Source: an uncultured Pelagibacteraceae bacterium (GTDB lineage: Bacteria > Pseudomonadota > Alphaproteobacteria > Pelagibacterales > Pelagibacteraceae). Taken from it: DNA of 39,984 nt. Positions 1,008 through 15,553 of this stretch are shown here, one piece after another (the stretch's first letter is position 1; every line of letters begins with the position of its first letter). The stretch covers positions 1-39,984 of the forward strand of contig CACCIT010000006.1 of assembly GCA_902546145.1 (NCBI GenBank), written 5' to 3'. The notes beneath the pieces are model-generated. The model worked only from the letters and a program-made list of their open reading frames with translations. It was not told the DNA's origin and made no database searches. Both the position numbers and the translations under genes were made by a program.

Positions 1008-2059
1008 TGCTTAAACAGATTAATCAAATTTTCACATTAAAATTTATTTCTGTTTTAATAATTTCTTTTCCTAGTGCTATTGTTGCTGAATATCTGAATA
1101 TACCTTTAGCTTGGTTTTTAGGACCAATGATTATTACATCAATTGCTGCATTGTCAGGTCTGAAAATCATCATGCCTAAAATTGTATTAAGTTTTATCTT
1201 GATAATTTTAGGTTTGCATATTGGAAATTACATAGATCAAAATCTATTTAATCAAATGTTTGATTGGATTTGGACTTCGCTAATTATGCTAATCTACATA
1301 ATAATTTGTATTTTAGTTGTTGCTAAATACCTTCAAAAATTTGCAAGTTATGGAGAAAAAGCTTCCATCTTTTCGGCAGCTCCTGGTGCACTGGGTCCTT
1401 TAATGATTTTAGCTGAAAATGAAAAAACGGATTTATCTCAAGTTGCAACCTCTCACTTAATAAGATTAATCATCATAATTACTGTCATTCCATTTATTAT
1501 AGTTAATAATACTGAAAACAATGTTTTGTTAAATGATAATTTCAATTATTTAGCTCAAAATCATTTAAATTTAATTTTACTTATTATTGCATCTTTATTT
1601 TTTATTTTTGTTTTTGATAAAATTAGAATTCCTGCTGCTTTATTATCTGGAACATTATTTGCGAGTGGTTTATTACAAGTTACAGATATAGCCTCATACA
1701 AATTACCAGATGAAACAGTAAATTTTTGTCTGCTAATTCTTGGCTCTTCTGTTGGATGTAGGTTTGCTGAAAAAACTGTTAAAGAGATAGCCAATAATTC
1801 TCTTCATAGTATTGTGGCTACCATTATTTTGGTAGTATTAGGTTTGGTTGCATCCTATGTTGCGACATTCTTTGTTGATACAAATATTTTAACTTTAATA
1901 TTATCTTTTAGTCCTGGAGGAATTTATGAAGTAGCAGTTATAGCAATTGCTTTTGATTTAGACCCAGATTTTGTTGCTTTTCATCATATTATAAGATTAC
2001 TTTTTATCCTTTTCACAGTTCCAATATTTTTAAGAGTTTTAGAAAAAATTAAGAAATAA
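1007..2059 (+). CDS. AbrB-family (COG3180-type) integral membrane protein, putative transporter or regulator
   Basis: A 350-residue, very hydrophobic protein with about ten membrane segments. It is arranged as two similar halves, each with a glycine/proline-rich FSAAPGALGP or FSPGGIYEV element (about residues 121-131 and 301-308), which marks the AbrB family once annotated as 'ammonia monooxygenase'. These proteins often sit beside tripartite tricarboxylate transporter genes, as here. The start overlaps the IclR stop by one base, implying translational coupling. The 3' end overlaps the convergent glycosyltransferase gene by 11 bp. The molecular function of the family is poorly settled; transport of a small carboxylate or a regulatory membrane role are both possible. 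Confidence 0.75.
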   Translation: MLKQINQIFTLKFISVLIISFPSAIVAEYLNIPLAWFLGPMIITSIAALSGLKIIMPKIVLSFILIILGLHIGNYIDQNLFNQMFDWIWTSLIMLIYIIICILVVAKYLQKFASYGEKASIFSAAPGALGPLMILAENEKTDLSQVATSHLIRLIIIITVIPFIIVNNTENNVLLNDNFNYLAQNHLNLILLIIASLFFIFVFDKIRIPAALLSGTLFASGLLQVTDIASYKLPDETVNFCLLILGSSVGCRFAEKTVKEIANNSLHSIVATIILVVLGLVASYVATFFVDTNILTLILSFSPGGIYEVAVIAIAFDLDPDFVAFHHIIRLLFILFTVPIFLRVLEKIKK

Positions 2060-2990
2060 TTTCAGAAAGTCTTTCAAAAACTTTTTCTGCTGAGAGTTTT
2101 GATAATTCGGGGGCTTGTATTGCTTTAAAGTTATCTCTTTCAATGCTGACTTTAAAAGGAGTTGTGTGTGAACCAAATAAAGCAACACCCTTTGATCCTA
2201 AATGAGCCGTTATATGAGCAGGTCCAGTATCATTAGCGACCACAAATGAACTATCTTTAATTAATGAAGATAATTGTGAAATATTTAAAGCTTTACCATT
2301 ATCTAAAACACATAAAGCATTTATATTTTTTGCATCTTTAATTTCATCTGGTCCAGGTGCAGTAACCACTTTAAATTTATTTTCGAATTTTTCATTAATT
2401 AAAGAGATAAGGTCGTTGTAGTAAGGCCATTTCTTTAAATTTAAATGAGGTGAGCAAAAAGGAAAAAGTATTATGTATTTATCTAGTTCATAACTTTTTT
2501 TTATTTCTGAAATATCGACTATACTCCACGAAAAGTCTGGTTGCATTGTGTGATTAGTATTAATTCCCGAAGATTTTAACTGATGATCAAATCTTGAAAG
2601 AACAGAATCTTTATCAAAATCTTTTTTAGTTGTTCCTTTTGGTAGAGTTGTTTCTGTTGAGCACCAGATAGTTTTATCAGCTTTAGGAAATAATATATTT
2701 TTGTAAAATGATGTTCTGTTAGAATTTTGAAGATCATAAACTTTTGAGAAATTATGTTTTTTAATCTCTCTCATTAGTAAATATAAATAAATTAAGTTAA
2801 TCTTTGATAATCTCTTATCTAGAATAACATTTGAAATATGTGGGTTTTTTTTAAATAGTTCAAAATAAGGTTTGGTTGTTAATAAATGAATTTGATCTCC
2901 TTTATGATTTTCAGAAATATCTTGAACAGCCCCACATGCTTGAGCTATATCACCTAAAGATCCATGTTTAATAATTAAAATATTAGACAT
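2049..2990 (-). CDS. Glycosyltransferase family 9 / ADP-heptose:LPS heptosyltransferase-like protein
   Basis: A 313-residue GT-B fold enzyme. The N-terminus has the family's IIKHGSLGDIAQACGAV motif (about residues 5-22; compare R-x-x-xGD in heptosyltransferases). The C-terminal donor site is VVANDTGPAHITAHLGSKGV followed by LFGSHTTP (about residues 250-278). It would transfer a heptose or related sugar from a nucleotide donor to lipopolysaccharide core on the inner face of the cytoplasmic membrane. It is divergent from a DUF6165 gene only 32 bp away. The actual sugar and acceptor cannot be told. Confidence 0.8.
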   Translation of the reverse strand: MSNILIIKHGSLGDIAQACGAVQDISENHKGDQIHLLTTKPYFELFKKNPHISNVILDKRLSKINLIYLYLLMREIKKHNFSKVYDLQNSNRTSFYKNILFPKADKTIWCSTETTLPKGTTKKDFDKDSVLSRFDHQLKSSGINTNHTMQPDFSWSIVDISEIKKSYELDKYIILFPFCSPHLNLKKWPYYNDLISLINEKFENKFKVVTAPGPDEIKDAKNINALCVLDNGKALNISQLSSLIKDSSFVVANDTGPAHITAHLGSKGVALFGSHTTPFKVSIERDNFKAIQAPELSKLSAEKVFERLSEIIS

Positions 2991-3011
2991 ATTTTTAACA
3001 ACTTAACATAG

Positions 3012-3017
3012 TATAAA
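3012..3017 (+). promoter_or_regulatory. Candidate -10 box placing transcription start at the DUF6165 start codon
   Basis: TATAAA lies 5 bp before the ATG at 3023. With the usual 6-7 base spacing, transcription would start on or beside that ATG, giving a leaderless message. There is no recognisable ribosome site and only 32 bp to the divergent gene. No clear -35 was found. Confidence 0.4.
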
Positions 3018-3022
3018 GTTTT

Positions 3023-3412
3023 ATGAATAAAATTATAGTAGAGGTTTCTGTTGGAGAGCTTTTAGACAAGATTTCAATATTAGAAATCAAACAAAATAAA
3101 ATAAAAGACCCAGAAAAATTAAATTTTATAAATAACGAACACTCTATTCTTAAAAATCAGTTAGAAAAAAATGTTAAGTCTGATGAGAAGCTTGAAAAAT
3201 TATTTCAAGACTTGAAAGATATAAATGCCAAACTTTGGGTTATTGAAGATGATAAAAGAGATTGTGAAAAAAATAAAGATTTTGGAGAAAAATTCATAAA
3301 ACTTTCTAGAGATGTTCATTTTTTAAATGATGATCGTGCAAAAATAAAACTAGAAATGAATAACCATACTGGTTCAATTATTAAAGAAATTAAAGAGTAT
3401 ACTAGTTACTAA
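3023..3412 (+). CDS. DUF6165-family small protein
   Basis: 129 residues, soluble and strongly helical/charged, with a well conserved opening VEVSVGELLDKISILEIKQN that I recognise as the DUF6165 signature, then a long coiled-coil-like region (about residues 18-110). There is no signal peptide or membrane segment. Members are often found near sugar and glycosyltransferase genes. Here it lies head to head with a heptosyltransferase-like gene, suggesting a supporting role in surface polysaccharide synthesis, but no activity is known to me. The 3' end overlaps the convergent PhyH gene by 11 bp. Confidence 0.75.
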   Translation: MNKIIVEVSVGELLDKISILEIKQNKIKDPEKLNFINNEHSILKNQLEKNVKSDEKLEKLFQDLKDINAKLWVIEDDKRDCEKNKDFGEKFIKLSRDVHFLNDDRAKIKLEMNNHTGSIIKEIKEYTSY

Positions 3413-4190
3413 AAACTTTTGGGAACCAATCTTCTCTCATTTGATCTCCAGATTTTAAATTAATTCCATCAAATGGTGGTGATGTTGGACCACCTCTATC
3501 AGCAAAAGTAACATCATCACCTATAAATCTCATTGAAAACGCTCTACGAGAATGAGAACTTTGATTTCCTGTGGAACCATGAGCAGTTTTAAAATTAAAC
3601 AAAACTGCATCACCTAATTTTAAATCAGGAACTAATATATCTTTTTCAAATTCTTCTATTTTTGGAAGATTCATAAATGAGCTATCATCTTCATACCAAG
3701 GTTGATCATTAGACCATTTAGTAGGTCTTATAAGTTTTTGCCATTTGTGCGATCCTAAAATTAATTTAAGGTTATTTTCTTTATTTACCTCATCTAATGG
3801 TATCCAAAAACTTCCTGTATCGTTTCCATCAACACAATAATAAGGCATATCTTGATGCCAAGGTGTTTCTTTGTTTGTACCTGGGTCTTTTATAAAAAGA
3901 TGATCATGAAAAATTTGTATAGATTTTGAATTTGTAGCCTCAGCAACTATTTGGGCTGCGGGGGAATTGAACATACAATCTTTAAATTCTTTTATTCTTT
4001 CCCAATTGCAATAATCTTCAAAAAACCTTCCCTCATTTTCACTTACATTTTCTCTTCCATGTTGACTTGGGTTGTCTAAAACTTTTTGAAAACCACTTCT
4101 TAATGTTTCAATCCAATCTTTAAATTCACCTTTAATAATTATTGCACCAAGATTTTGATAATCATCAATCTGTTTTTGAGAAAGATACAT
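3402..4190 (-). CDS. Phytanoyl-CoA dioxygenase (PhyH) family Fe(II)/2-oxoglutarate oxygenase
   Basis: 262 residues, the usual PhyH length. Iron ligands are visible as H112-x-D114 in TPWHQDMPYY and H204 in KTAHGS, with R215/R216 (SHSRRAFSMRF) as the 2-oxoglutarate-binding arginine, so the enzyme looks intact. It would hydroxylate a small substrate using O2 and 2-oxoglutarate in the cytoplasm. It is the last gene of a run with the basic amino-acid ABC permeases, starting 1 bp after hisM-like stops, where an ATPase gene might be expected. This suggests, without proof, that it hydroxylates a compound brought in by that importer. Ectoine-hydroxylase-like or other amino-acid hydroxylase activity is possible. 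Confidence 0.8.
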   Translation of the reverse strand: MYLSQKQIDDYQNLGAIIIKGEFKDWIETLRSGFQKVLDNPSQHGRENVSENEGRFFEDYCNWERIKEFKDCMFNSPAAQIVAEATNSKSIQIFHDHLFIKDPGTNKETPWHQDMPYYCVDGNDTGSFWIPLDEVNKENNLKLILGSHKWQKLIRPTKWSNDQPWYEDDSSFMNLPKIEEFEKDILVPDLKLGDAVLFNFKTAHGSTGNQSSHSRRAFSMRFIGDDVTFADRGGPTSPPFDGINLKSGDQMREDWFPKVFSN

Positions 4191-4191
4191 T

Positions 4192-4869
4192 TTATTGTTG
4201 GAAGCTATATTTTTTTTCTAAATACTTAATCACATTATGGATAACAAAAGTCATAAATAAATATATTCCACCAGCTACAATAAATACTTCTATAGGCTTA
4301 AATGTTGTTGATATGATGTATTTTGCAACACCAGTTAAGTCCATTAGTGTTACGGTGCTTGCTAATGAAGTACCTTTCATCATTAAAATTATTTCATTTC
4401 CATAGGCAGGAAGAGATTGTCTAATAGCAATAGGTATTTGAATTTTATAAAATATAATTTTGTTTGAAATACCTAGACTTTTCCCAGCTTCGATAATTCC
4501 AGGTTTTATAGTTTGAAATGCAGATCTTAATATTTCAGACGTGTATGCGCCTGTATTTAATGTAAAAGCAATAATTGCACACCAATAAGGCTCTTTTAAA
4601 ACAACCCATAAAACTGTTGATCTTAAATATTCAATTTGTCCTAATCCAAAGTAGATAATAAAAATTTGAACTAATAAAGGAGTACCTCTGAAAACATAAG
4701 AATATCCATAAGCAAATTTATTAATAAATATATTTTTGTTTAATCTTAAGATTGCAAAAAATAATCCAAGAAATAATCCAAAAAATAAAGAAGCTGATAA
4801 AAGTTTTAAAGTAATTACAGTTGCTCCTAAAAGTTTTGGAAAACTAGTAATCATTAAATCAAAATCCAT
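4192..4869 (-). CDS. Polar amino-acid ABC transporter permease (HisM-like)
   Basis: 225 residues with about five membrane helices. The cytoplasmic EAA loop EAGKSLGISNKIIFYKIQIP (about residues 131-150) docks the ATPase in this family. The N-terminal FKLL-LSASLFFGLFLGLFF-type helix and the FRGTPLLVQIFIIYFG segment are characteristic of HisM/ArtM permeases for basic or polar amino acids. Its start overlaps the stop of the upstream permease by one base (TAATG), and the PhyH gene follows after 1 bp. No ATP-binding gene follows, so the ATPase must be encoded elsewhere. Confidence 0.88.
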   Translation of the reverse strand: MDFDLMITSFPKLLGATVITLKLLSASLFFGLFLGLFFAILRLNKNIFINKFAYGYSYVFRGTPLLVQIFIIYFGLGQIEYLRSTVLWVVLKEPYWCAIIAFTLNTGAYTSEILRSAFQTIKPGIIEAGKSLGISNKIIFYKIQIPIAIRQSLPAYGNEIILMMKGTSLASTVTLMDLTGVAKYIISTTFKPIEVFIVAGGIYLFMTFVIHNVIKYLEKKYSFQQ

Positions 4870-5561
4870 TAATAACCCCTGCTATATTTCACTTCTAATT
4901 TATTAATTAACTTCATGCTTATGTAAGTAAGCAATAAATATAAAACTGCTGCAAAAGAATAAAAAAATAATGGATCTCTTGTAGATCCTGCAGCAATATA
5001 AGATTGTCTCATGATTTCGACTAAACCAGTTACTGATATTAAAGAAGTGTCCTTTAAAGTAATTTGCCAAACATTACTTAAATTTGGAATTGCCAGTCTT
5101 AACATTTGAGGAAGAATAATTTTATAGAATTGACCAAATTTGCTTATACCTAAAACCTTTGCAGCCTCGAACTGACCCTTATCAATCGATTGAATAGCTC
5201 CTCTAAAAACTTCTGTTGAGTAAGCTCCTGAAATTATTCCAATAGCAACAGCACCAGTAATAAATGCATTGATTTCTATATATTCGTAATAACCAAATAT
5301 TGATGCAACATACATGATTGCACCACTTCCACCGAAAAATAACAAATAGATTACTAATAATTCAGGAACACCTCTTATTACTGTGGTGTAAAAATTACCT
5401 ACGAAGTTCAGTGTTTTGTATTTTGAAAGTTTGAGTGGAGTAAAAATTAAAGCAAAAAGGAAACCAACTAACATCGCTGTAACAGATACAGCAACTGTCA
5501 TTAGGGTAGCATAAAATAACTCATCACCCCAACCTGTTTTTCCAAATGCAAGAAGTTCCAT
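4869..5561 (-). CDS. Polar amino-acid ABC transporter permease (HisQ-like)
   Basis: 230 residues with about five membrane helices. The EAA loop is EAAKVLGISKFGQFYKIILP, and IRGVPELLVIYLLFFGG is a typical HisQ/OccQ segment. It forms the heterodimeric channel with the next gene product. It lies 44 bp behind the binding-protein gene, with a perfect stem-loop in between. The start ATG at 5559-5561 sits just outside that stem-loop, so RNA folding may limit its translation relative to the binding protein. Confidence 0.88.
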   Translation of the reverse strand: MELLAFGKTGWGDELFYATLMTVAVSVTAMLVGFLFALIFTPLKLSKYKTLNFVGNFYTTVIRGVPELLVIYLLFFGGSGAIMYVASIFGYYEYIEINAFITGAVAIGIISGAYSTEVFRGAIQSIDKGQFEAAKVLGISKFGQFYKIILPQMLRLAIPNLSNVWQITLKDTSLISVTGLVEIMRQSYIAAGSTRDPLFFYSFAAVLYLLLTYISMKLINKLEVKYSRGY

Positions 5562-5567
5562 ATAGAC

Positions 5568-5592
5568 TGGCGACTATATATTATAGTCGCCA
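5568..5592 (-). terminator. Intercistronic stem-loop between binding-protein and permease genes
   Basis: A perfect 11-bp inverted repeat, TGGCGACTATA (5568-5578) against TATAGTCGCCA (5582-5592), with a 3-base loop. It is markedly more GC-rich than its surroundings. No T-run follows on the transcribed strand, so it is more likely a 3' stabiliser or processing site raising the level of the binding-protein message than a full terminator. Confidence 0.75.
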
Positions 5593-5605
5593 AATCCAAA
5601 ATTAA

Positions 5606-6457
5606 TTACATAGAAGCGTCGAAACCAAAATGTTTAATTGCAAGTTTGCTAATTATTCCTTGTTTTCTAGCTTTGTTAATTGCTTTATTAAAATCTTTTA
5701 AGATTTTAGCATCTCTTTTTCCAATAGCGCTATCGCTAGCTTGTCTGATTCCAACACCAACTCCATTTCCAAATGCACCACCTGAAAAAGTTGGTCCAAC
5801 TAAAACAACTGGCTTACCAGATTTATCAGCAAAGTCTGTAAATGCTACAGCTGCAGCAAGTGCAACATCGCATCTTCCAGAAGTTAAATCTAAGTTAACC
5901 TCGTCTTGAGTTTTGTAAGTTCTAACATTCACACTCCCAACATCACCAGACTCTAAAAAGTTTTGGTGAATTGTACCTGTTTGAGTACAGACTGTTTTTC
6001 CAGCTAGAGCATCAGTTAGAGTTTTAAGTGCTTTTTTAACACTAGAACCACCTAAAGATAAATTAATACCTTCAGGTGTATCCATGCCTTCTAAGCTTGA
6101 ACCTTTCATTACAGCAAGAGATGCAACTTCATCAGCATAACCTTGTGAAAAAGTAATTGTTTTCTTTCTTTCATCAGTAATAGACATACCTGCCATGATT
6201 GCATCGAATTTTCTCATTACTAACGCAGGTATCATTCCATCCCAATCTTGCTCAACGATTGTACACTCATACTTCATAATTTTACAAAGCTCTTGAGCTA
6301 GCTCAACCTCAAATCCAATTAAATTCCCAGAAGCATCTTTTGAATTCCATGGAGGATAAGCACCTTCAGTTCCAATTTTAATTTTCTCAGCAGAAACATT
6401 TCCGATGATTAAAAAAGAAGCTAGAAGTGTTAAAATAGTTTTTTTGAATATATTCAT
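5606..6457 (-). CDS. Periplasmic polar/basic amino-acid-binding protein (SBP_bac_3, HisJ/ArgT-like)
   Basis: 283 residues. The signal peptide is residues 1-23 (cleavage after NVSA). The mature protein opens with KIKIGTEGAYPPWN, followed by LIGFEVELAQELC and the D-A-I-MAGMSITDERKKTITFS stretch that lines the amino-acid site of lysine/arginine/ornithine and histidine binding proteins. The start is supported by AAGGAG before the ATG. It heads the permease genes and lies 57 bp behind the SpeD-SpeE fusion on the same strand, so polyamine synthesis and uptake of a basic amino-acid precursor may be co-expressed. The exact ligand cannot be fixed from sequence alone. Confidence 0.87.
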   Translation of the reverse strand: MNIFKKTILTLLASFLIIGNVSAEKIKIGTEGAYPPWNSKDASGNLIGFEVELAQELCKIMKYECTIVEQDWDGMIPALVMRKFDAIMAGMSITDERKKTITFSQGYADEVASLAVMKGSSLEGMDTPEGINLSLGGSSVKKALKTLTDALAGKTVCTQTGTIHQNFLESGDVGSVNVRTYKTQDEVNLDLTSGRCDVALAAAVAFTDFADKSGKPVVLVGPTFSGGAFGNGVGVGIRQASDSAIGKRDAKILKDFNKAINKARKQGIISKLAIKHFGFDASM

Positions 6458-6514
6458 ATTTTCTCCTTTAATTGGAATAATTATTTCACAATTTTTAGAA
6501 AGAAAAAAGAAAAA

Positions 6515-7555
6515 TTAATGATTTATTGATGATGAAAAGTTCCAAGCACAATCAAAACTTGGTATGTAAACTCTAGATAATTTAGCATTACCAAAATTTT
6601 GATTAAAAACATTTAACCAACTATCAACTTGTTTAGGTTTTTTATCCTGACTTCCAACTTGAGCTGTTATCACCCCTTTTGGTTTCAATATTCTCACCAA
6701 AGAATCCATATTTTTTGCTGCTAAATCGATGCAAAACTGATCATCATTAAGGTCAACAAAAATATGATCGTAAGTATCATCAGCTACTGATTTAATACTT
6801 TCAAACGCATCTCCCCAGACACATTTAACTGAATTTTTTTCTGTAGCTTTTTTTCCAATATCACCAAGATGTTTATTGCAAACGTCTACAACTTCAGGAT
6901 CTAACTCATACCAATCAATAAAATTAAAATTTTTTGAAATACATTCTCTTGCAACTCCACCATCTCCACCTCCGATGATAGCTGCTCTTTCATTATCTTT
7001 GTTTAAATTTAAACTTGAACCAACAAATGTTGAACTGTATAAATGTTCATCTGTTGCAGCAACTTGAATTTCACCATCTATAAATAAAGATTTTCCAAAC
7101 TGCTCAAGATCTAAAATTTCAATATGTTGACCGACTTTTGATTTAAAATCTTCTAAAACATCATTTACAACATAGGATTTTTGTAAACCTGGAGAACTAT
7201 AAATGTCATGATAAAGTGATTTTGTATCTCTATTAAATTCTTTTTTAACAATTCTTGTATGTTCAAATTCTTTTTTAATTATATCAATTGCAACTGATGG
7301 ACTTACTTTTCCGCATGTAAAAAAATCAAAACTAATAATTCCTTTTTCAGGAAATGTATGAAAGCTAATATGACTTTCTGCAAGAAGAGCTAATATTGTA
7401 AATCCTTGTGGTTCAAATTTATATTTCGAAATATTTAAAATTGTAACCTTTGCAGCTTTTGAAATATCATGAATTACCTTTTCATACACTGAAGGATTAT
7501 ATTCCTTATCAGTTCCTATAATGTCTAGAGTTATATGTTCGCCTACTTTTGTCAT
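6515..7555 (-). CDS. Fused S-adenosylmethionine decarboxylase - spermidine synthase (SpeD-SpeE)
   Basis: 346 residues with two complete activities in one chain. Residues 1-115 are a bacterial AdoMet decarboxylase: E60-S61 is the self-cleavage site giving the pyruvoyl group (LLAESHISFHTFPE), with H66 and C81 (FFTCG) at the expected spacing. Residues 125-346 are an aminopropyltransferase with the nucleotide motif IIGGGDGGVARE (about 193-204), ELDPEVVD (217-224) and GDA (248-250). Together they would make decarboxylated AdoMet and transfer its aminopropyl group to putrescine, releasing methylthioadenosine. The usual DE-x-x-YH motif reads DEHLYSS, and VDSTDP reads VDLNDD, so the amine acceptor may differ from putrescine. 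Neighbouring mtnP, mtnA and apt handle the by-product. Confidence 0.9.
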   Translation of the reverse strand: MTKVGEHITLDIIGTDKEYNPSVYEKVIHDISKAAKVTILNISKYKFEPQGFTILALLAESHISFHTFPEKGIISFDFFTCGKVSPSVAIDIIKKEFEHTRIVKKEFNRDTKSLYHDIYSSPGLQKSYVVNDVLEDFKSKVGQHIEILDLEQFGKSLFIDGEIQVAATDEHLYSSTFVGSSLNLNKDNERAAIIGGGDGGVARECISKNFNFIDWYELDPEVVDVCNKHLGDIGKKATEKNSVKCVWGDAFESIKSVADDTYDHIFVDLNDDQFCIDLAAKNMDSLVRILKPKGVITAQVGSQDKKPKQVDSWLNVFNQNFGNAKLSRVYIPSFDCAWNFSSSINH

Positions 7556-7613
7556 ATTAATAATAGTTCAATCTTACTATCGCATTTTTTTCTTCTTTCA
7601 ATGAAAAAACTAT

Positions 7614-7619
7614 TATAAT
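7614..7619 (+). promoter_or_regulatory. Candidate -10 box for the aldolase-dehydrogenase gene
   Basis: A perfect TATAAT lies 20 bp before the GTG start at 7640, predicting a leader of about 13-15 bases. No convincing -35 was seen. It lies in the 84-bp gap between the divergent SpeD-SpeE and aldolase genes, where TAATAGTT and AACTATTA also form an inverted repeat around the gap. Confidence 0.5.
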
Positions 7620-7639
7620 ACTTCGCATAGGTTGAAACT

Positions 7640-9673
7640 GTGAAAAACAATTGGTCAAATTCAGAAGCACAAAAATATATTAAAAAATATAATAAACTTG
7701 GTCATTCTAAAGATATGGCGCTAAGAGTTTATACTACAAGATTATTAGGAAGAAATAGCGAGTTAGTTCTACACGGAGGTGGCAATACATCGGTAAAAAC
7801 TTCAATTAAGGACATTGATGGTAAAAATTATGATGTACTTTGTGTAAAAGGAAGTGGTTGGGATATGGCTGAAATAGAGCCAGCAGGATTGCCTGCTGTA
7901 AAACTAAATCCACTATTGGCGCTTAAAAATAAAAAATATTTAAGCGATGAAGACATGGTTGCATATCAAAAAAGAAATTTAATAGATATCAAATCTCCAA
8001 ACCCTTCAGTTGAAACTTTTTTACATGCGTTTCTACCTTTTAAGTTTGTAGATCATACTCACTCTGATGCAATAATGGATATTACTAATAGGGCAAACGG
8101 AAAAGAACTTTGTAAAAAAATTTTTGGACCAAAAGTAAGTATAGTCCCTTATGTAATGCCAGGATTTGGTTTGGCTCAAAAAATAAATGAGGTTTATAAA
8201 AAAAATCCAAACATTAATTGCTTAATTTTATTAAACCATGGAATATTTACTTTCGATGATGATGCCAAAAAATCTTATGACTTAATGATCAAATATGTAT
8301 CGATAGCTGAAAAAACTATTAAAAAATTAAAGAGAAAAAAAATTAAACAAATAAAAAATTATAATTTTAAATTTAAACCTTATGAAATTGCACCAATTTT
8401 AAGAGGATTATTATCAGAAAATAAAGATCAAAAATTTATCTTAAATTATAGATCAAATAAAAATCTAAATTATTTTATTAATGGTAAAGATGTCAAAAGA
8501 TACTCCAGTATAGGAACTGCAACACCCGATCATGTTATTAGAGTAAAACCATTTCCGCTAGTTATTAGCCCAAAAGAAAATTCTTCAATTGAAGATTTTA
8601 AAAAGCTAGCCGAGAAAAGTTTTAAAGATTACAGAAAAAAGTATGTGAGATATTTCAATACCAATAAGAAAAAAGTAAAAGGTAAGAAAACTATGCTGGA
8701 TACTTCGCCAAGAGTAATTTTGGTGCAAAATGTTGGATTGTTTAGCGTAGGAGATAGTCTTAAGGCATCTAAAATAGCTGGAGATTTAACTGAAACAAAC
8801 GCAAGAGTCATTTCATCAGTTGAGGAAACTACAAAATACAAGTTTATTACTGAAAAAGATTTATTTGATGTTGAATATTGGTCTTTAGAACAAGCTAAAA
8901 TTAAAAAAGCTAAAAAAATTCTTCAAGGAAACGTTGTTGTAATTACAGGAGGATTTGGTGCAATTGGAACAGCAACTTATAAACTTTTTAAAAGTTATGG
9001 TGCTGAAATTGTTCTATTAGATTATGACGAAAAAAAAGTTATTGAAATGCAAAGTAAAATTTCAGATCTTTGTTTGCATTGTGATGTACGAAATAAAAAT
9101 AGTGTTAAAGCTGCTTTTAAAAAAATAAACGAGATATATGGTGGTGTTGATATTCTAATTTCTAATGCAGGGACTGCAATTGGTGGGTCAATTGCTGAAG
9201 TAGATGATAAAATTTTAAGAGAAAGCTTTGAGGATAATTTCTTTTCTCACCAAAATTGTGCATCAGAAACAATTAAAATAATGAAAAAACAAAATATTCA
9301 AGGATGCTTATTATTTAATATTTCAAAACAATCAGTAAATCCTGGAAAAAATTTTGGTCCTTATGGTCTTCCAAAAACTGCTTTATTAAGTTTATGTAAA
9401 CAATATGCATTAGATTATGGTTCTCTTGGAATAAGATCAAATGGTGTAAATGCTGATAGGATTAGAAGTGGACTGCTTAATGATGGAATGATTAAATCTC
9501 GTGCAAAAGCTAGAGAAGTTTCTACTGATGAATATATGAGAGGAAACCTGCTTTTAAATGAAGTAAAGGCAGAAGATGTTGCTAAAGCATTTTTTCATTT
9601 GGCAGTTTCAAAAAAAACAACTGGTGCAGTTTTGACAGTAGATGGTGGAAATATCGCTGCTTCTCTTAGATAA
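7640..9673 (+). CDS. Fused class II aldolase / short-chain dehydrogenase (RhaD-RhaE-like bifunctional enzyme)
   Basis: 677 residues. The N-terminal part (about 20-250) is a class II sugar-phosphate aldolase: HGGGNTSVK (45-53), E125 in PSVETFLHA, and zinc histidines H139 and H141 (VDHTHSD) and H200 (LLNHGI). The C-terminal part (about 430-677) is an SDR with ITGGFGAIG for NAD(P) and Y575-x3-K579 (PYGLPK). The architecture matches bifunctional rhamnulose-1-phosphate aldolase/lactaldehyde dehydrogenases, which split a ketose-1-phosphate to DHAP plus an aldehyde and then oxidise the aldehyde. No rhamnose genes are nearby; the neighbours are SpeD-SpeE, mtnA, mtnP and apt. I infer that 5-methylthioribulose-1-phosphate or 5-deoxyribulose-1-phosphate is a plausible substrate. 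The start is GTG. The end is 1 bp from convergent mtnA. Confidence 0.85.
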   Translation: MKNNWSNSEAQKYIKKYNKLGHSKDMALRVYTTRLLGRNSELVLHGGGNTSVKTSIKDIDGKNYDVLCVKGSGWDMAEIEPAGLPAVKLNPLLALKNKKYLSDEDMVAYQKRNLIDIKSPNPSVETFLHAFLPFKFVDHTHSDAIMDITNRANGKELCKKIFGPKVSIVPYVMPGFGLAQKINEVYKKNPNINCLILLNHGIFTFDDDAKKSYDLMIKYVSIAEKTIKKLKRKKIKQIKNYNFKFKPYEIAPILRGLLSENKDQKFILNYRSNKNLNYFINGKDVKRYSSIGTATPDHVIRVKPFPLVISPKENSSIEDFKKLAEKSFKDYRKKYVRYFNTNKKKVKGKKTMLDTSPRVILVQNVGLFSVGDSLKASKIAGDLTETNARVISSVEETTKYKFITEKDLFDVEYWSLEQAKIKKAKKILQGNVVVITGGFGAIGTATYKLFKSYGAEIVLLDYDEKKVIEMQSKISDLCLHCDVRNKNSVKAAFKKINEIYGGVDILISNAGTAIGGSIAEVDDKILRESFEDNFFSHQNCASETIKIMKKQNIQGCLLFNISKQSVNPGKNFGPYGLPKTALLSLCKQYALDYGSLGIRSNGVNADRIRSGLLNDGMIKSRAKAREVSTDEYMRGNLLLNEVKAEDVAKAFFHLAVSKKTTGAVLTVDGGNIAASLR

Positions 9674-9674
9674 T

Positions 9675-10745
9675 TTATTTAAATAATTTTTTTAATCCTT
9701 CAGAAGAAGCTTTGGAAACACCTCTTTCAGTGATCAATCCAGTTACATATTTCGCAGGTGTTACATCAAAAGCTAAATTCATAGCCTTACTTTTCTTCGG
9801 GTAGATCAAAACTTTTTTAACTTCATTGTTTTCATCAACACCCTCGACATGAGATAATTCCTCAGAGTTTCTTTCCTCAATTGGAATGTCTTTTGAATCT
9901 TTAATATTCCAATCAATAGTTGAGCTTGGGAGTGCAACATAAAAAGGAACATTGTTATCATGTGCAGCTAAAGCTTTTAGATAAGTTCCAATTTTATTAC
10001 ATACATCTCCATTTGATAAAGTTCTATCTGTTCCGACTATACACATATCAACTTCACCTCTTTGCATTAAAATACCACCAGTATTATCAGCAATAATTGT
10101 GTTGGGTATTTCTTCCTCATTTAACTCATATGAAGTTAAATTTGCACCTTGATTTCTTGGTCTTGTTTCATCTATCCATACATGGACTGGAATTCCTTTT
10201 TTATGGGCATGATAAATAGGCGAAGTTGCTGTTCCCCAATTAATAGTTGCTAACCATCCTGCGTTGCAATGAGTTAAAATATTTACTGTACTTTTTTTCT
10301 TATTGTAAATTTCTTCAATTATTCTTAATCCATTAACACCTATATTTTCACAAAACTTTTCATCTTCGTCACATATTTCTTTAGCTTCATTTAAAGCTAT
10401 ATCTAAAACTTGATCACTATCTATGTCAGATAATTTTTTCATCATACGATCAACTGCCCATTTTAGATTAATTGCTGTAGGCCTTGATTGAATTAATTCT
10501 TTTGCATTTTTATTAATAAACTCTTTCTCGGTACTTTCTTGAATAGCTAATACTATCCCGTAAGCAGCAGTTCCTCCTATAAGTGGAGCGCCTCTAACTT
10601 CCATGACTTTTATTGCATTAATTGCATCTTTTACTGATTTAAGATCTTTTATTAAAAATTGATGAGGAAGTTTTGTTTGATCAATTATTTTTACTATTTT
10701 ATCCTCATACCATATTGTTCGATATTCTTTTCCTTGAATTCTCAT
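9675..10745 (-). CDS. mtnA: S-methyl-5-thioribose-1-phosphate isomerase
   Basis: 356 residues, full length. The family's RGAPLIGGTAAYG (51-63), the catalytic cysteine C160 (LTHCNAGWLA) and catalytic aspartate D240 (VGTDRTLSNGDVCNKIGTY) are in place, at the numbering known for bacterial MtnA. It turns 5-methylthioribose-1-phosphate into 5-methylthioribulose-1-phosphate in methylthioadenosine recycling. Its ATG overlaps the mtnP stop by 4 bases (ATGA), so the two are translated from one message. No mtnB, mtnC or mtnD follows; instead the convergent neighbour is the class II aldolase fusion. Confidence 0.95.
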   Translation of the reverse strand: MRIQGKEYRTIWYEDKIVKIIDQTKLPHQFLIKDLKSVKDAINAIKVMEVRGAPLIGGTAAYGIVLAIQESTEKEFINKNAKELIQSRPTAINLKWAVDRMMKKLSDIDSDQVLDIALNEAKEICDEDEKFCENIGVNGLRIIEEIYNKKKSTVNILTHCNAGWLATINWGTATSPIYHAHKKGIPVHVWIDETRPRNQGANLTSYELNEEEIPNTIIADNTGGILMQRGEVDMCIVGTDRTLSNGDVCNKIGTYLKALAAHDNNVPFYVALPSSTIDWNIKDSKDIPIEERNSEELSHVEGVDENNEVKKVLIYPKKSKAMNLAFDVTPAKYVTGLITERGVSKASSEGLKKLFK

Positions 10746-11614
10746 TTAATTAAAACTCTACCAGCAACTGTTTTTAACTTATCTATTGTTTTTTGGGTTC
10801 GTTTTTCTGGAGCTGTAATAATAGCCACATCTAAGCAACTATTAGTTGGGTCATTTGGATCTATATGGCTTTCAAAATTATCAATTAAATTTTTAATCAT
10901 AATTTTTGCTTTTTCAGCATTTCCTAACAAAACTTTAATTACTTGTTGAACATCGACGTTTTCATGATCTGGGTGCCAACAATCAAAATCTGTAACCATT
11001 GAAACTGATGCATATCTAATTTCAGCTTCTCTTGCTAGTTTTGCTTCAGGCATGTTGGTCATACCAATAACATCTGCTTTCCAAAATCTATATAAATTTG
11101 ATTCTGCTAAAGTTGAAAATTGAGGCCCTTCCATAACTACATAAGTTCCATTTCTTTGATATTCTATATTGGATTTTTTAATTGCGTCCTCACAAGCATT
11201 CATTAGTCCATTTGATGTGGGATGTGCCATTGATACATGGGCAACGATTTCATCATCAAAAAAAGTTTTTACTCTTGCAAAAGTTCTATCAATAAATTGA
11301 TCAACAATAACAAATTTTCCAGGTGGCAACTCTTCTTTCAAGGATCCTACAGCTGAAACTGAAACAATATCAGTAACACCTAATTGTTTTAACGCATCGA
11401 TGTTCGCCCTAAAATTTATATTTGAGGGAGAAACAAAATGGCCTTTACCATGTCTTGGTAAAAAATAAACTTCTTTATCATTATAATTGGTTTTTAATAT
11501 TTGATCAGATGGTTTACCCCAAGGTGTATTGATTTCTAACAATTCTCTATTAGTAAATTCTTCAATATCATAAAGACCACTACCACCAATTATTGCTAAT
11601 TTATTTGTTGTCAT
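10742..11614 (-). CDS. mtnP: S-methyl-5'-thioadenosine phosphorylase
   Basis: 290 residues, typical of MTA phosphorylase. Visible motifs are IGGSGLYD (9-16), the phosphate-binding RHGKGHF, VMEGPQFST, the ribose/base site NMPEAKLAREAEI, and TDFDCWHPDHE, where the aspartates are those that accept adenine in the MTAP branch. It cleaves methylthioadenosine with phosphate to adenine and methylthioribose-1-phosphate. It is the first gene of an mtnP-mtnA operon and is divergent from apt with only 33 bp between, so adenine release and adenine salvage are physically paired. Confidence 0.93.
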   Translation of the reverse strand: MTTNKLAIIGGSGLYDIEEFTNRELLEINTPWGKPSDQILKTNYNDKEVYFLPRHGKGHFVSPSNINFRANIDALKQLGVTDIVSVSAVGSLKEELPPGKFVIVDQFIDRTFARVKTFFDDEIVAHVSMAHPTSNGLMNACEDAIKKSNIEYQRNGTYVVMEGPQFSTLAESNLYRFWKADVIGMTNMPEAKLAREAEIRYASVSMVTDFDCWHPDHENVDVQQVIKVLLGNAEKAKIMIKNLIDNFESHIDPNDPTNSCLDVAIITAPEKRTQKTIDKLKTVAGRVLIK

Positions 11615-11633
11615 AATTTAAAATATATTTATT

Positions 11634-11639
11634 TATAAT
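11634..11639 (+). promoter_or_regulatory. Candidate -10 box giving a leaderless apt message
   Basis: A perfect TATAAT ends 8 bp before the apt ATG at 11648, so transcription is predicted to start at or within a couple of bases of the start codon. No ribosome site is visible. The gap to the divergent mtnP is 33 bp. Confidence 0.45.
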
Positions 11640-11647
11640 TAAGAATT

Positions 11648-12175
11648 ATGAATTTAAAAGATCATATTAGATCAATTCCTGATTATCCTAAAAAAGGTAT
11701 TTTATTTAGAGATATAACTACCCTTATTAAAAATGAGAAAGCTTTTGCTGAAACGATCAATCAAATTATTGAGAGATCTAAAAAATACACAATTGATAAA
11801 ATTGCTGCAATAGAATCAAGAGGTTTTGTGTTTGCTTCTGCAGTTTCTTATATCCTTAAAAAACCTTTCATAATGTTGAGAAAAAAAAATAAATTACCAG
11901 CTGAAGTACATTCTGTGGATTTTGAATTAGAGTACGGAACTGCAACAATTGAGGTTCATAAAGATTCTATATTAAAAGATGAATCTGTATTAATAATTGA
12001 TGACTTAATTGCAACTGGTGGTACTGCAGAGGCTGCTGCTAAATTAGTTGAAATGTGTGACGCAAAAGTAGCTGCATTTGTTTTTGTTATTAATTTATTT
12101 GATTTAGGTGGATCTGATAATTTGGTTAATAAAAATTACAAAGTTGAAAATTTAATTGAATTTCCAGGACATTAG
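11648..12175 (+). CDS. apt: Adenine phosphoribosyltransferase
   Basis: 175 residues, full length. It has the opening IRSIPDYPKKGILFRDITTL, the IAAIESRGFVFASAV segment and the PRPP-binding loop VLIIDDLIATGGTAEAA (about residues 114-130). It makes AMP from adenine and PRPP in the cytoplasm. Placed head to head with mtnP, it recovers the adenine freed from methylthioadenosine. The stop codon ends 1 bp before the 3' CCA of a convergent tRNA gene, leaving no room for a separate terminator. Confidence 0.95.
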   Translation: MNLKDHIRSIPDYPKKGILFRDITTLIKNEKAFAETINQIIERSKKYTIDKIAAIESRGFVFASAVSYILKKPFIMLRKKNKLPAEVHSVDFELEYGTATIEVHKDSILKDESVLIIDDLIATGGTAEAAAKLVEMCDAKVAAFVFVINLFDLGGSDNLVNKNYKVENLIEFPGH

Positions 12176-12176
12176 A

Positions 12177-12253
12177 TGGTAGCGGGAAGTGGGATCGAAC
12201 CACTGACCTCGGGCTTATGAGTCCCGCGCTCTAACCAACTGAGCTACCCCGCC
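12177..12253 (-). tRNA. tRNA with CAU anticodon (elongator tRNA-Met, or tRNA-Ile2)
   Basis: On the minus strand a 77-nt cloverleaf with encoded CCA: acceptor GGCGGGG pairing with TCCCGCT (G-U at both ends), a D arm with AGCTCAGTTGGTTAGAGC, an anticodon loop CTCATAA flanked by CGGGA/GCCCG, and a T arm GTGG-TTCGATC-CCAC. The anticodon is CAT. The initiator is unlikely, because the 1-72 pair is G-U rather than C/A mismatched and the three-G-C stack next to the loop is not present. The last anticodon-stem pair is an A-G mismatch. Elongator Met and lysidine-modified Ile2 cannot be separated safely by eye. Confidence 0.93.
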
Positions 12254-13105: not shown

Positions 13106-15553
13106 TTAAATTTTTTTAAAATTAGATTGTTTTAATGGTTTAAATATAATTTCAGCAGAATATTTAACTTTTTCTATTTCTATTGAAATATTTCCATTCA
13201 GAAGTTCGTCATTTGAATAGTTGTTGTTTATATAACCGAAAGCAAGATTTTTTTTGAAATTAAAAGAATAATTACCCGATGTAGTTCGTCCAATGATTTT
13301 ATTGTCTTTATAAATAGGTTCGTCATGGAGTAAAAGAGGTTTTCCAGGTTCATTATTTTTAAGGACAAACATAGCAAATTTCCTATCAACTTTTTTATCT
13401 TTTATTTTTTCCAGAGCCTGTCTTCCTATAAAATTATATTCTTTTTTATAACTAATTGTAAAGTTAAGACCTGCCTGGTATTGATTTTCTTCAGGGGAAA
13501 TATCGTGACCCCAATGTAAAAAACCACTTTCCATTCTCATTGTATCTAATGAATGCATTCCACAATTAGATAAATTATATTTTTTCCCTTTTTCTATTAA
13601 TTTTTCATAAATATTTTTAGATTCTGAAGTTTTGACATAAAGCTCATAACCCAACTCACCAACAAAAGATAATCTTTGTGTCCATATTTTAGTTCCATCA
13701 ATTTCTATATATTTTGAATTCGCAAACTTAAAATTTTCATTACTAAAATCATCTTCACTTAAATCATGCATTAACAATCTGCTCTTTGGACCAAATATTC
13801 CAAACACACAATAATCATCAGTAACATCAGTTAGCTCTACACCTTCTGATAGATGCTTTTTAATATGAAATTTATCTCTTTCTCTTGTTTCTGCAGAACT
13901 AATTATTCTAAAATGATTTTGATCAATACAAACTACTGTAAGATCTGTTTCGATTCCTCCATCATTATTAAGCATATGGGTATAAGTGCATTTTCCAGGT
14001 TCCTGCTTTATATTTGATGTGCAAATTCTCTGAAGATTTTCATGAGCTTTTTTAGATTTAATTTCGAATTTAGAAAAAGGAGACAAATCATATAATCCAA
14101 CATTTGTTAGTGTATTTTTGGTTTCGTATTCAACTGATGGATACCAGTTTTGATAATTATAACTGTATTCATACTCAGCTTTTTCACCATCAAGAGCAAA
14201 CCACATTGGTCTTTCGTATCCAGCTGAAACTCCAAAGCATGCACCAAAGCTTTTTAATTCATCATGGTATGGTAATTTTTTTATATTTCTTGATGTTTTG
14301 TGTTGCTTATATGGCCAATGCATACCATATAAATCACCAAGTGACTCTGTGATACGATCTTTAATAAAATCTAAATCTGAATGAAACTTTTGAAATCTCT
14401 TTATATCATAATTAAAAATATCTTCATTGATATGTCCGGTCATTAGCCACTCTGCAGTTACTTTTCCAACTCCACCTCCACTTCCAATGCCAATGCTATT
14501 CAAACCACAACTGACAAATAAATTTTTAATCTCAGGAACTTCACCTAATAAAGAATTGGTATCGGGTGTAAAAGATTCTGGACCTGAAAAAAACTTTCTA
14601 ATTCCAGCTTGTTCTAAAACTGGAAATCTTTTCATAGATTTTTCTAAATATGGTTCAAAATGATCAAAATTTTCAGGAAATTCACCGAATGAAAAATCTT
14701 CTGGAACTTTGTTGGCATTATTAAATGCTGGAATTGATTTACCTTCAAATATTCCAATTAAGAGTTTTCCAGCATCTTCTTTGATATAAGTGCTACTATC
14801 AAAATCTCTTATCACAGGTAATGTTGGTGAAAGATTTTCAATTGGCTCTGTAATTACATAAAAATGTTCGGCGGGATATAAAGGAATACTAATTCCTATT
14901 TTTTCTCCAATTTGTCTAGACCACATTCCTGTTGCAAGAACAACATATTCACATTCAATATCTTGTCCATTAACTCTAACTCCATTCACTCTTCCATTTT
15001 TGGTTAATATTGTTTCAACAGGTGATTGCTCAAATATTTTTGCTCCACCTAATCTTGCACCTTTTGCTAACATGTGGGTAACTCCACTTGGATCTGCAGC
15101 GCCATCACCTGGCATTAATACTCCACCCTTTAAATCATCTGTATACATGATTGGATAATTTTTCTTTATCTCATCTTTGTCTAAAATTTTAATATCCACA
15201 TCATATAATTGAGCAGTGGTTGCCTGTCTTTGAAGTTCTTGCCATCTAGCATCTGTTTGAGCAATGGATAAGGCTCCATTGATTCTTAAACCTGCGGAAT
15301 GATCAACTTCTTTTTCTAATTTTTTATATAAATCTAAAGTATATTTTCTAATTTTTGTAACTGCAGCTGTTGGTCCTAACTGGCTAACTAATCCTGCTGC
15401 ATGCCAAGTTGTACCTGATGTTAATTGATCTCTTTCCAAAAGCACAACATCTTTCCAACCAAATTTTGTTAAGTGATAAGCTACAGAGCATCCAATAACT
15501 CCACCTCCAATTATAACAACTTTACATGAATGCGGAAATTTTTTATTGATCAT
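13106..15553 (-). CDS. Dimethylglycine/sarcosine dehydrogenase-like flavoprotein with folate-binding GcvT domain
   Basis: 815 residues. The N-terminal FAD-dependent amine oxidase domain has VVIIGGGVIGCSVAYHL (12-28) and H51 in TTWHAAGLV, the site of covalent flavin attachment in dimethylglycine and sarcosine dehydrogenases. A middle FAO_M-like part is followed by GcvT and GcvT C-terminal barrel domains (about 430-810), where MRMESGFLHWGHDISPEENQYQAGL is the typical signature. It should oxidatively demethylate dimethylglycine or sarcosine in the cytoplasm and hand the one-carbon unit to tetrahydrofolate. It follows a sugar epimerase gene by 9 bp on the same strand, an odd partnership. No betaine transporter or demethylase is in view. 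Confidence 0.85.
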   Translation of the reverse strand: MINKKFPHSCKVVIIGGGVIGCSVAYHLTKFGWKDVVLLERDQLTSGTTWHAAGLVSQLGPTAAVTKIRKYTLDLYKKLEKEVDHSAGLRINGALSIAQTDARWQELQRQATTAQLYDVDIKILDKDEIKKNYPIMYTDDLKGGVLMPGDGAADPSGVTHMLAKGARLGGAKIFEQSPVETILTKNGRVNGVRVNGQDIECEYVVLATGMWSRQIGEKIGISIPLYPAEHFYVITEPIENLSPTLPVIRDFDSSTYIKEDAGKLLIGIFEGKSIPAFNNANKVPEDFSFGEFPENFDHFEPYLEKSMKRFPVLEQAGIRKFFSGPESFTPDTNSLLGEVPEIKNLFVSCGLNSIGIGSGGGVGKVTAEWLMTGHINEDIFNYDIKRFQKFHSDLDFIKDRITESLGDLYGMHWPYKQHKTSRNIKKLPYHDELKSFGACFGVSAGYERPMWFALDGEKAEYEYSYNYQNWYPSVEYETKNTLTNVGLYDLSPFSKFEIKSKKAHENLQRICTSNIKQEPGKCTYTHMLNNDGGIETDLTVVCIDQNHFRIISSAETRERDKFHIKKHLSEGVELTDVTDDYCVFGIFGPKSRLLMHDLSEDDFSNENFKFANSKYIEIDGTKIWTQRLSFVGELGYELYVKTSESKNIYEKLIEKGKKYNLSNCGMHSLDTMRMESGFLHWGHDISPEENQYQAGLNFTISYKKEYNFIGRQALEKIKDKKVDRKFAMFVLKNNEPGKPLLLHDEPIYKDNKIIGRTTSGNYSFNFKKNLAFGYINNNYSNDELLNGNISIEIEKVKYSAEIIFKPLKQSNFKKI

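Follow-up and report, generated by a model that had tools for sequence, protein, structure and literature searches.

The stretch of DNA analyzed in this work, below called the window, comprises 39,984 nucleotides (positions 1 to 39,984 of contig CACCIT010000006.1, assembly GCA_902546145.1) from an uncultured Pelagibacteraceae bacterium, a member of the alphaproteobacterial order Pelagibacterales. It harbors a gene encoding a class II aldolase fused to a short-chain dehydrogenase/reductase (SDR), which is surrounded by genes for the formation and breakdown of 5'-methylthioadenosine (MTA). The original prediction had placed five genes at this locus, and all of them were confirmed by the open reading frames (ORFs) between 6515 and 12175 and by matches to NCBIfam models. 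The locus, including the two domains of the fusion, is composed as follows:

7640..9673, forward strand: aldolase-SDR fusion, GTG start, 677 amino acids
7640..8323, forward strand: class II aldolase domain of the fusion, with H139, H141, H200 and with E125 in the motif PSVET (alignments, residue statistics, fold match to 3m4r)
8912..9670, forward strand: SDR domain of the fusion, with the motif TGGFGAIG and D461, N509, S562, Y575 and K579 (alignments, domain and fold searches)
6515..7555, reverse strand: speD-speE, a single ORF of 346 amino acids for S-adenosylmethionine decarboxylase and aminopropyltransferase, divergent from the fusion, predicted source of MTA
9675..10745, reverse strand: mtnA, S-methyl-5-thioribose-1-phosphate isomerase, convergent with the fusion (TIGR00512, 421.9 against a cut-off of 279)
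10742..11614, reverse strand: mtnP, MTA phosphorylase (NF006492, 444.2 against a cut-off of 437; also TIGR01694)
11648..12175, forward strand: apt, adenine phosphoribosyltransferase, divergent from mtnP (ORF and NCBIfam match)

The end of mtnP and the start of mtnA overlap by 4 bases. MtnA, MtnP, Apt and the SpeD domain (TIGR03330) score above the NCBIfam cut-offs and the SpeE matches of the speD-speE ORF below; a gene fusion in SpeE of SAR11 is mentioned in PMC8437039. The genome assembly, 62% complete, consists of 40 contigs with 897,822 bases in total; absences were therefore checked in relatives.

The fusion is a full-length member of NF006192 (PRK08324.1-6), the bifunctional aldolase/short-chain dehydrogenases, with 900 bits at a cut-off of 639. 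Among the best 25 of 210 NCBIfam models this is the sole cut-off which it passes, and the family name gives no substrate. The aldolase domain covers residues ~1-228 (Pfam Aldolase_II, PF00596, at 31-224) and is followed by a middle region (~230-425) and the SDR domain (~425-677; Pfam match at 431-670). The AlphaFold2 model is confident, with a mean predicted local distance difference test score of 92.7 and a predicted template modeling score of 0.91. Residues 1-228 of the model were aligned to PDB entry 3m4r from Thermoplasma acidophilum over 212 residues (Z 32.9, root mean square deviation 1.5, 42% identity); this entry has the same class II aldolase fold, comprises the N-terminal domain only and is titled 'conserved protein', without a function. 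Residues about 425-677 match SDRs, and such matches fill the best 50 rows of each fold search, so that the lack of a full-length fusion in these rows has no bearing on absence. His139, His141, His200, Asp461, Asn509, Ser562, Tyr575 and Lys579 are invariant and Glu125 is nearly invariant in 55 aligned rows. We take H139, H141 and H200 to be the zinc ligands and E125 to be the catalytic acid by reference to the chemistry of FucA, and D461 presumably is the acid of NAD-type SDRs, the roles of the other SDR residues being likewise assumed from SDR chemistry.

The same order of aldolase, middle region and SDR, with the same conserved His and SDR residues, occurs in RhaEW (YuxG of B. subtilis, Chloroflexus; TIGR02632). 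According to PMC3870299, RhaEW couples aldol cleavage to the NAD+-dependent oxidation of lactaldehyde and is inactive with NADH, and the likeness of both proteins makes a coupled NAD+ step likely in the fusion, too. A fusion acting in MTA breakdown had been regarded as possibly new in the original prediction; its architecture is known from RhaEW, and the subfamily is already contained in NCBIfam. The shared architecture, an identity of 28-34% to RhaEW-like rows and the match to TIGR02632 would also agree with the fusion being a RhaEW itself, i.e., an aldolase for rhamnulose-1-phosphate (or fuculose-1-phosphate) joined to a lactaldehyde dehydrogenase. However, the TIGR02632 match reaches 442.7 bits at a cut-off of 567.75, the fusion goes with mtnA instead of rhaI, and in a tree of 75 fusions the nine RhaEW-like rows are set apart from the rest. 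RhaI (TIGR02629) was matched in seven of the nine RhaEW-like genomes (five over the cut-off), and the remaining two, G431 and G339, additionally have a fusion of the mtnA type. In contrast, no RhaI match was obtained in the order's 17 fusion genomes or in 19 other genomes with the mtnA-type fusion only, other isomerases and kinases of rhamnose and fucose not having been searched. Moreover, residue 125 is fixed as Glu in the mtnA-type fusion, whereas 78% of the RhaEW-like rows have Asp. On the grounds of cut-off, RhaI absence and tree we rejected membership in RhaEW, and a rhamnose-type function, which the original prediction had named as an alternative, is thereby weakened to such an extent that we regard it as highly improbable.

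The distribution of the fusion was determined in 147 genomes of the order, with fragments included among the mtnA matches. The fusion was detected over the cut-off in 17 genomes, mtnA was matched in 80 (77 over the cut-off) and mtnP in 77, and a stand-alone FucA-like class II aldolase of ~214 amino acids was present in 63 (E below 1e-50). Of the 80 genomes with mtnA, 17 carry the fusion and 62 the stand-alone aldolase; none carries both and one (G144) carries neither. In G036, which has no mtnA match, the stand-alone gene lies at a contig edge. The co-occurrence about which the original prediction had asked was found: mtnA is matched in all 17 fusion genomes of the order (partially in G100, at a contig edge) and mtnP in 16, with G100 as the exception.

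For the analysis of gene order 37 loci of the order were examined, namely the window, 16 further loci with the fusion and 20 from mtnA genomes without it. The fusion lies at most 300 bp from mtnA in 13 of the 17 fusion loci; in G133 and G090 extra genes are inserted between them, and in G121 and G088 mtnA is outside the examined stretch. Within the window's family speDE adjoins the fusion in 14 of 14 fusion loci. The stand-alone aldolase occupies the position between speDE and mtnA in 19 of the 20 non-fusion loci (with extra genes before mtnA in L062), and the twentieth is the locus of G144. There (L067, 8546-11202), an ORF of 527 amino acids with a sulfatase-like appearance by eye directly follows mtnA in place of either aldolase. 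In a second family of the order mtnA was matched in three of 53 genomes, which are exactly the three fusion carriers, and speDE is missing at these loci. Two of them (L046 and L048) have the genes apt-mtnP-mtnA-fusion on one strand, which points to acquisition or retention of the unit in one piece.

Comparison of the window with its relative G020 delimited the replaced piece precisely:

7556..9664, no strand assigned: exchanged segment, in place of which G020 (L052) has a piece of ~0.6 kb with the stand-alone class II aldolase

On both sides the two sequences align without gaps, over 6525 bp at 92.5% identity (window positions 1031-7555) and over 2557 bp at 91.2% (9665-12221). The segment itself has no match in G020, and the aldolase gene is the only difference. 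Such exchanges have occurred repeatedly: the mtnA tree with its 34 rows shows nine switches of the slot state (at least four forced by starred branches) and the speDE tree with its 33 rows eight (at least six forced), both being gene trees of slot-flanking genes, which may recombine themselves. A gene exchanged again and again at one site fits two enzymes with the same task, although this is no proof. The fusion and the stand-alone mtnA-linked aldolase would accordingly be interchangeable alternatives, with genomes swapping one for the other by replacement of a single gene.

In the class Alphaproteobacteria, represented by 289 genomes including that of the window, the fusion query identified 50 fusions, each in a different genome, with an identity of 45-100%, and nine further matches at 30-35%. 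The fusion is no SAR11 speciality, being carried by 17 of the 147 order genomes and by 50 of the 289 class genomes. A match to mtnA was obtained in 47 of the 50 fusion genomes (partial in G244 and G345) compared to 86 of the 239 others. The fusion is located within 300 bp of mtnA in 24 of 50 genomes, 23 times on the mtnA strand, and within 20 kb in 28. With the stand-alone aldolase as query 81 genomes were found, and 52 of them have the gene on the strand of mtnA and at most 300 bp away from it; no fusion genome has a stand-alone gene within this distance. The 127 mtnA genomes of the class are divided into 43 with the fusion only, 70 with the stand-alone aldolase only, three with both and 11 with neither (Fisher p 6e-20, uncorrected for kinship). 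A chance neighborhood was rejected in view of the association throughout order and class and of the in-place swap.

The combination of MtnP, MtnA and a class II aldolase is characteristic of the dihydroxyacetone phosphate (DHAP) shunt of E. coli, R. rubrum and R. palustris (MtnP or MtnN/MtnK, MtnA, Ald2). As in this shunt, mtnP and mtnA are present at the window locus and a class II aldolase (PF00596) is found in the pathway slot beside mtnA; the difference is that the aldolase belongs to another class II lineage and is joined to an SDR. Ald2 and DrdA are among the class II aldolases described in papers on the shunt and on related salvage (PMC10986504, PMC12632272, PMC6079011, PMC5893883, PMC6302742), and Arabidopsis DEP1, a fusion of a class II aldolase with a phosphatase, is reported in PMC6079011 to cleave 5-deoxyribulose-1-phosphate. 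A BLASTP comparison of the fusion's aldolase domain with Ald2 of E. coli S88 gave no significant match (E 0.066), so that the fusion may be considered an analog of Ald2 at best.

The original prediction had further assumed that the canonical route is lacking. None of mtnB, mtnC and mtnD is found among the window neighbors, mtnB not having been searched by its own family, and the 62% complete window genome has no MtnD match and one MtnC match below the cut-off. For the order the assumption agrees with the results for MtnC and MtnD, and here the likeness to the DHAP shunt extends to the 17 fusion genomes, which lack MtnC over the cut-off as well as any MtnD match. For the class the lack is usual but not universal: among 66 fusion genomes MtnC is over the cut-off in five, and MtnD has a strong match in six and is over the cut-off in eight. 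Identical MtnD numbers (six and eight) were obtained for 80 mtnA genomes without the fusion, so that no stronger opposition to the canonical route is seen for the fusion outside the order than for the other mtnA genomes. Two of the 11 class genomes with mtnA and neither aldolase (G192 and G282) have a strong MtnD match.

The fusion most likely cleaves the product of MtnA, because it takes the place of the stand-alone aldolase beside mtnA and co-occurs with mtnA across the Alphaproteobacteria; the earlier proposal of an aldolase acting after MtnA is in this way strongly supported by comparative genomics. We therefore consider it probable that the fusion acts as third enzyme in a DHAP shunt, as an alternative methylthioribulose-/deoxyribulose-1-phosphate aldolase with a built-in aldehyde step. 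Apart from the possible recombination of the slot-flanking genes and the kinship among the genomes compared, several observations weigh against this assignment. The order's 17 fusion rows form one group in the tree (support 55), and the row which joins them most closely, L133 (G176), has a long branch and stems from a genome without an mtnA match; the rows joining next (L100, L104, L107, L112) all lie beside mtnA. The RhaEW substrate rhamnulose-1-phosphate differs in its C4 configuration from a D-ribulose-type substrate. The stand-alone aldolase scores higher with FucA than with Ald2 of E. coli in 15 of 15 rows, which does not support it as a sequence ortholog of Ald2, and its link to the shunt rests on context. 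The three genomes with both genes (G345, G267 and G323) hold the fusion plus a homolog of the stand-alone aldolase. From the 49 fusions of the tree outside the order 27 have mtnA, five only mtnP and 17 neither of them in the stretch, some of these contigs being short. Finally, in a set of named organisms with at least 80 fusion loci, whose genomes partly overlap the class sample, 69 loci offered at least 1200 bp upstream; among the matches listed, mtnA lies within 300 bp in 19 of the 69 and mtnA or mtnP in the flank in 32, and neither gene was seen in 37, many of them Reyranella-like. In the homologous locus L200 of Magnetospirillum sp. UT-4 a distance of 23 bp separates the fusion and mtnA.

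Among the matches listed, 18 of the 37 loci with neither mtnA nor mtnP have a homolog of the xanthine phosphoribosyltransferase of Reyranella soli (L171). There, at 4478-8037, the fusion follows this gene and a zinc alcohol dehydrogenase on the same strand at close spacing. The label 'Apt' for the gene beside Reyranella-like fusions was rejected, as the L171 gene scores as a xanthine phosphoribosyltransferase, and a tally in which mtnA, mtnP or 'apt' was present at 50 of the 69 loci (among the matches listed) was discarded because of the wrong label.

With the fusion as third enzyme, the following route can be proposed. By homology, SpeD-SpeE would form MTA, which MtnP would split into adenine, re-used by Apt, and 5-methylthioribose-1-phosphate; the latter would be isomerized to 5-methylthioribulose-1-phosphate by MtnA. 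The aldolase domain would then cleave this compound into DHAP and 2-(methylthio)acetaldehyde, and the fused NAD-type SDR would most likely oxidize the aldehyde at once to (methylthio)acetate, as RhaEW does with lactaldehyde. 5'-Deoxyadenosine would go the same way and yield acetaldehyde or acetate. The original prediction spoke of a complete recycling loop; adenine and three carbons (as DHAP) would indeed be recovered, but no step seen in the sequence returns the methylthio sulfur to methionine.

The direction of the aldehyde step could differ. SDRs are usually alcohol or carbonyl enzymes, and the SDR might act as a reductase giving 2-(methylthio)ethanol while the aldolase works as proposed. 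A putative alcohol dehydrogenase performs such a reduction of the aldehyde in the known shunt of R. palustris and R. rubrum (PMC5893883). We nevertheless favor oxidation to (methylthio)acetate because RhaEW required NAD+ and showed no activity with NADH (PMC3870299), and we judge the reductase to be the main, though somewhat unlikely, alternative.

As to the substrate, the known DHAP shunt handles compounds derived from MTA and from 5'-deoxyadenosine alike (PMC10986504), and DrdK/DrdI/DrdA of B. thuringiensis salvage 5-deoxyribose (PMC6079011). The fusion might accordingly act mainly on 5-deoxyribulose-1-phosphate from 5'-deoxyadenosine, a waste product of radical-S-adenosylmethionine enzymes, with oxidation of acetaldehyde to acetate and MTA as a minor substrate. 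This is rather unlikely, since in the window's family the fusion invariably adjoins speD-speE, the MTA source, and MtnP and MtnA score as MTA enzymes. The same scores above the cut-offs of MTA-pathway models, together with the speDE linkage, render it improbable that MtnP and MtnA serve a nucleoside route in which the fusion cleaves ribulose-1-phosphate into DHAP and glycolaldehyde and the SDR oxidizes the latter to glycolate. In favor of such a route, class II aldolases include a ribulose-1-phosphate aldolase family (NF053831), which matches the stand-alone gene below the cut-off, and a broad MTA phosphorylase is proposed for Prochlorococcus in PMC11698098.

A search of the open-licence literature found no paper which ties an aldolase-SDR fusion to MTA. 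Taken further than the assignment of the fusion, the data may tentatively be read as a widespread alphaproteobacterial branch of MTA metabolism, present in part of SAR11, in which a self-contained NAD-linked fusion of RhaEW architecture, trading places as a single gene with the stand-alone aldolase, would convert methylthioribulose-1-phosphate to DHAP and (methylthio)acetate with no release of the aldehyde in between. If this is true, (methylthio)acetate would be an unrecognized organosulfur product of abundant marine bacteria. The assignment of the fusion predicts a testable substrate for a common enzyme family which is named only by its domains. It further points to a second kind of enzyme for aldol cleavage in the DHAP shunt, and it allows a forecast of the Alphaproteobacteria in which MTA removal includes a built-in aldehyde step. 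SAR11 bacteria are well known for their need of reduced sulfur; for them it depends on what becomes of the methylthio group whether the sulfur of MTA is retained or lost to sea water.

Beyond the pathway genes, speDE is neighbored in the window (4192-6457) by a probable ABC transporter, consisting of an SBP_bac_3 binding protein (Pfam) and two ORFs which by inspection resemble permeases; among the 33 loci examined in the window's family, 28 have homologs beside speDE, with either type of aldolase. Aldolase_II matches occur twice in the window genome, in the fusion and in a class II aldolase-like protein of the PRK07044 type (L001, 1471-2202; G000:C11), which scores below the cut-off and has no visible link to MTA; the ORF after it looks by eye like a gamma-butyrobetaine-type dioxygenase. 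The Rfam scan of the window at gathering scores detected one tRNA and no riboswitch. At 13106-15553 a protein of 815 amino acids with DAO, FAO_M and glycine-cleavage-T domains is encoded, which we take to be dimethylglycine/sarcosine dehydrogenase-like.

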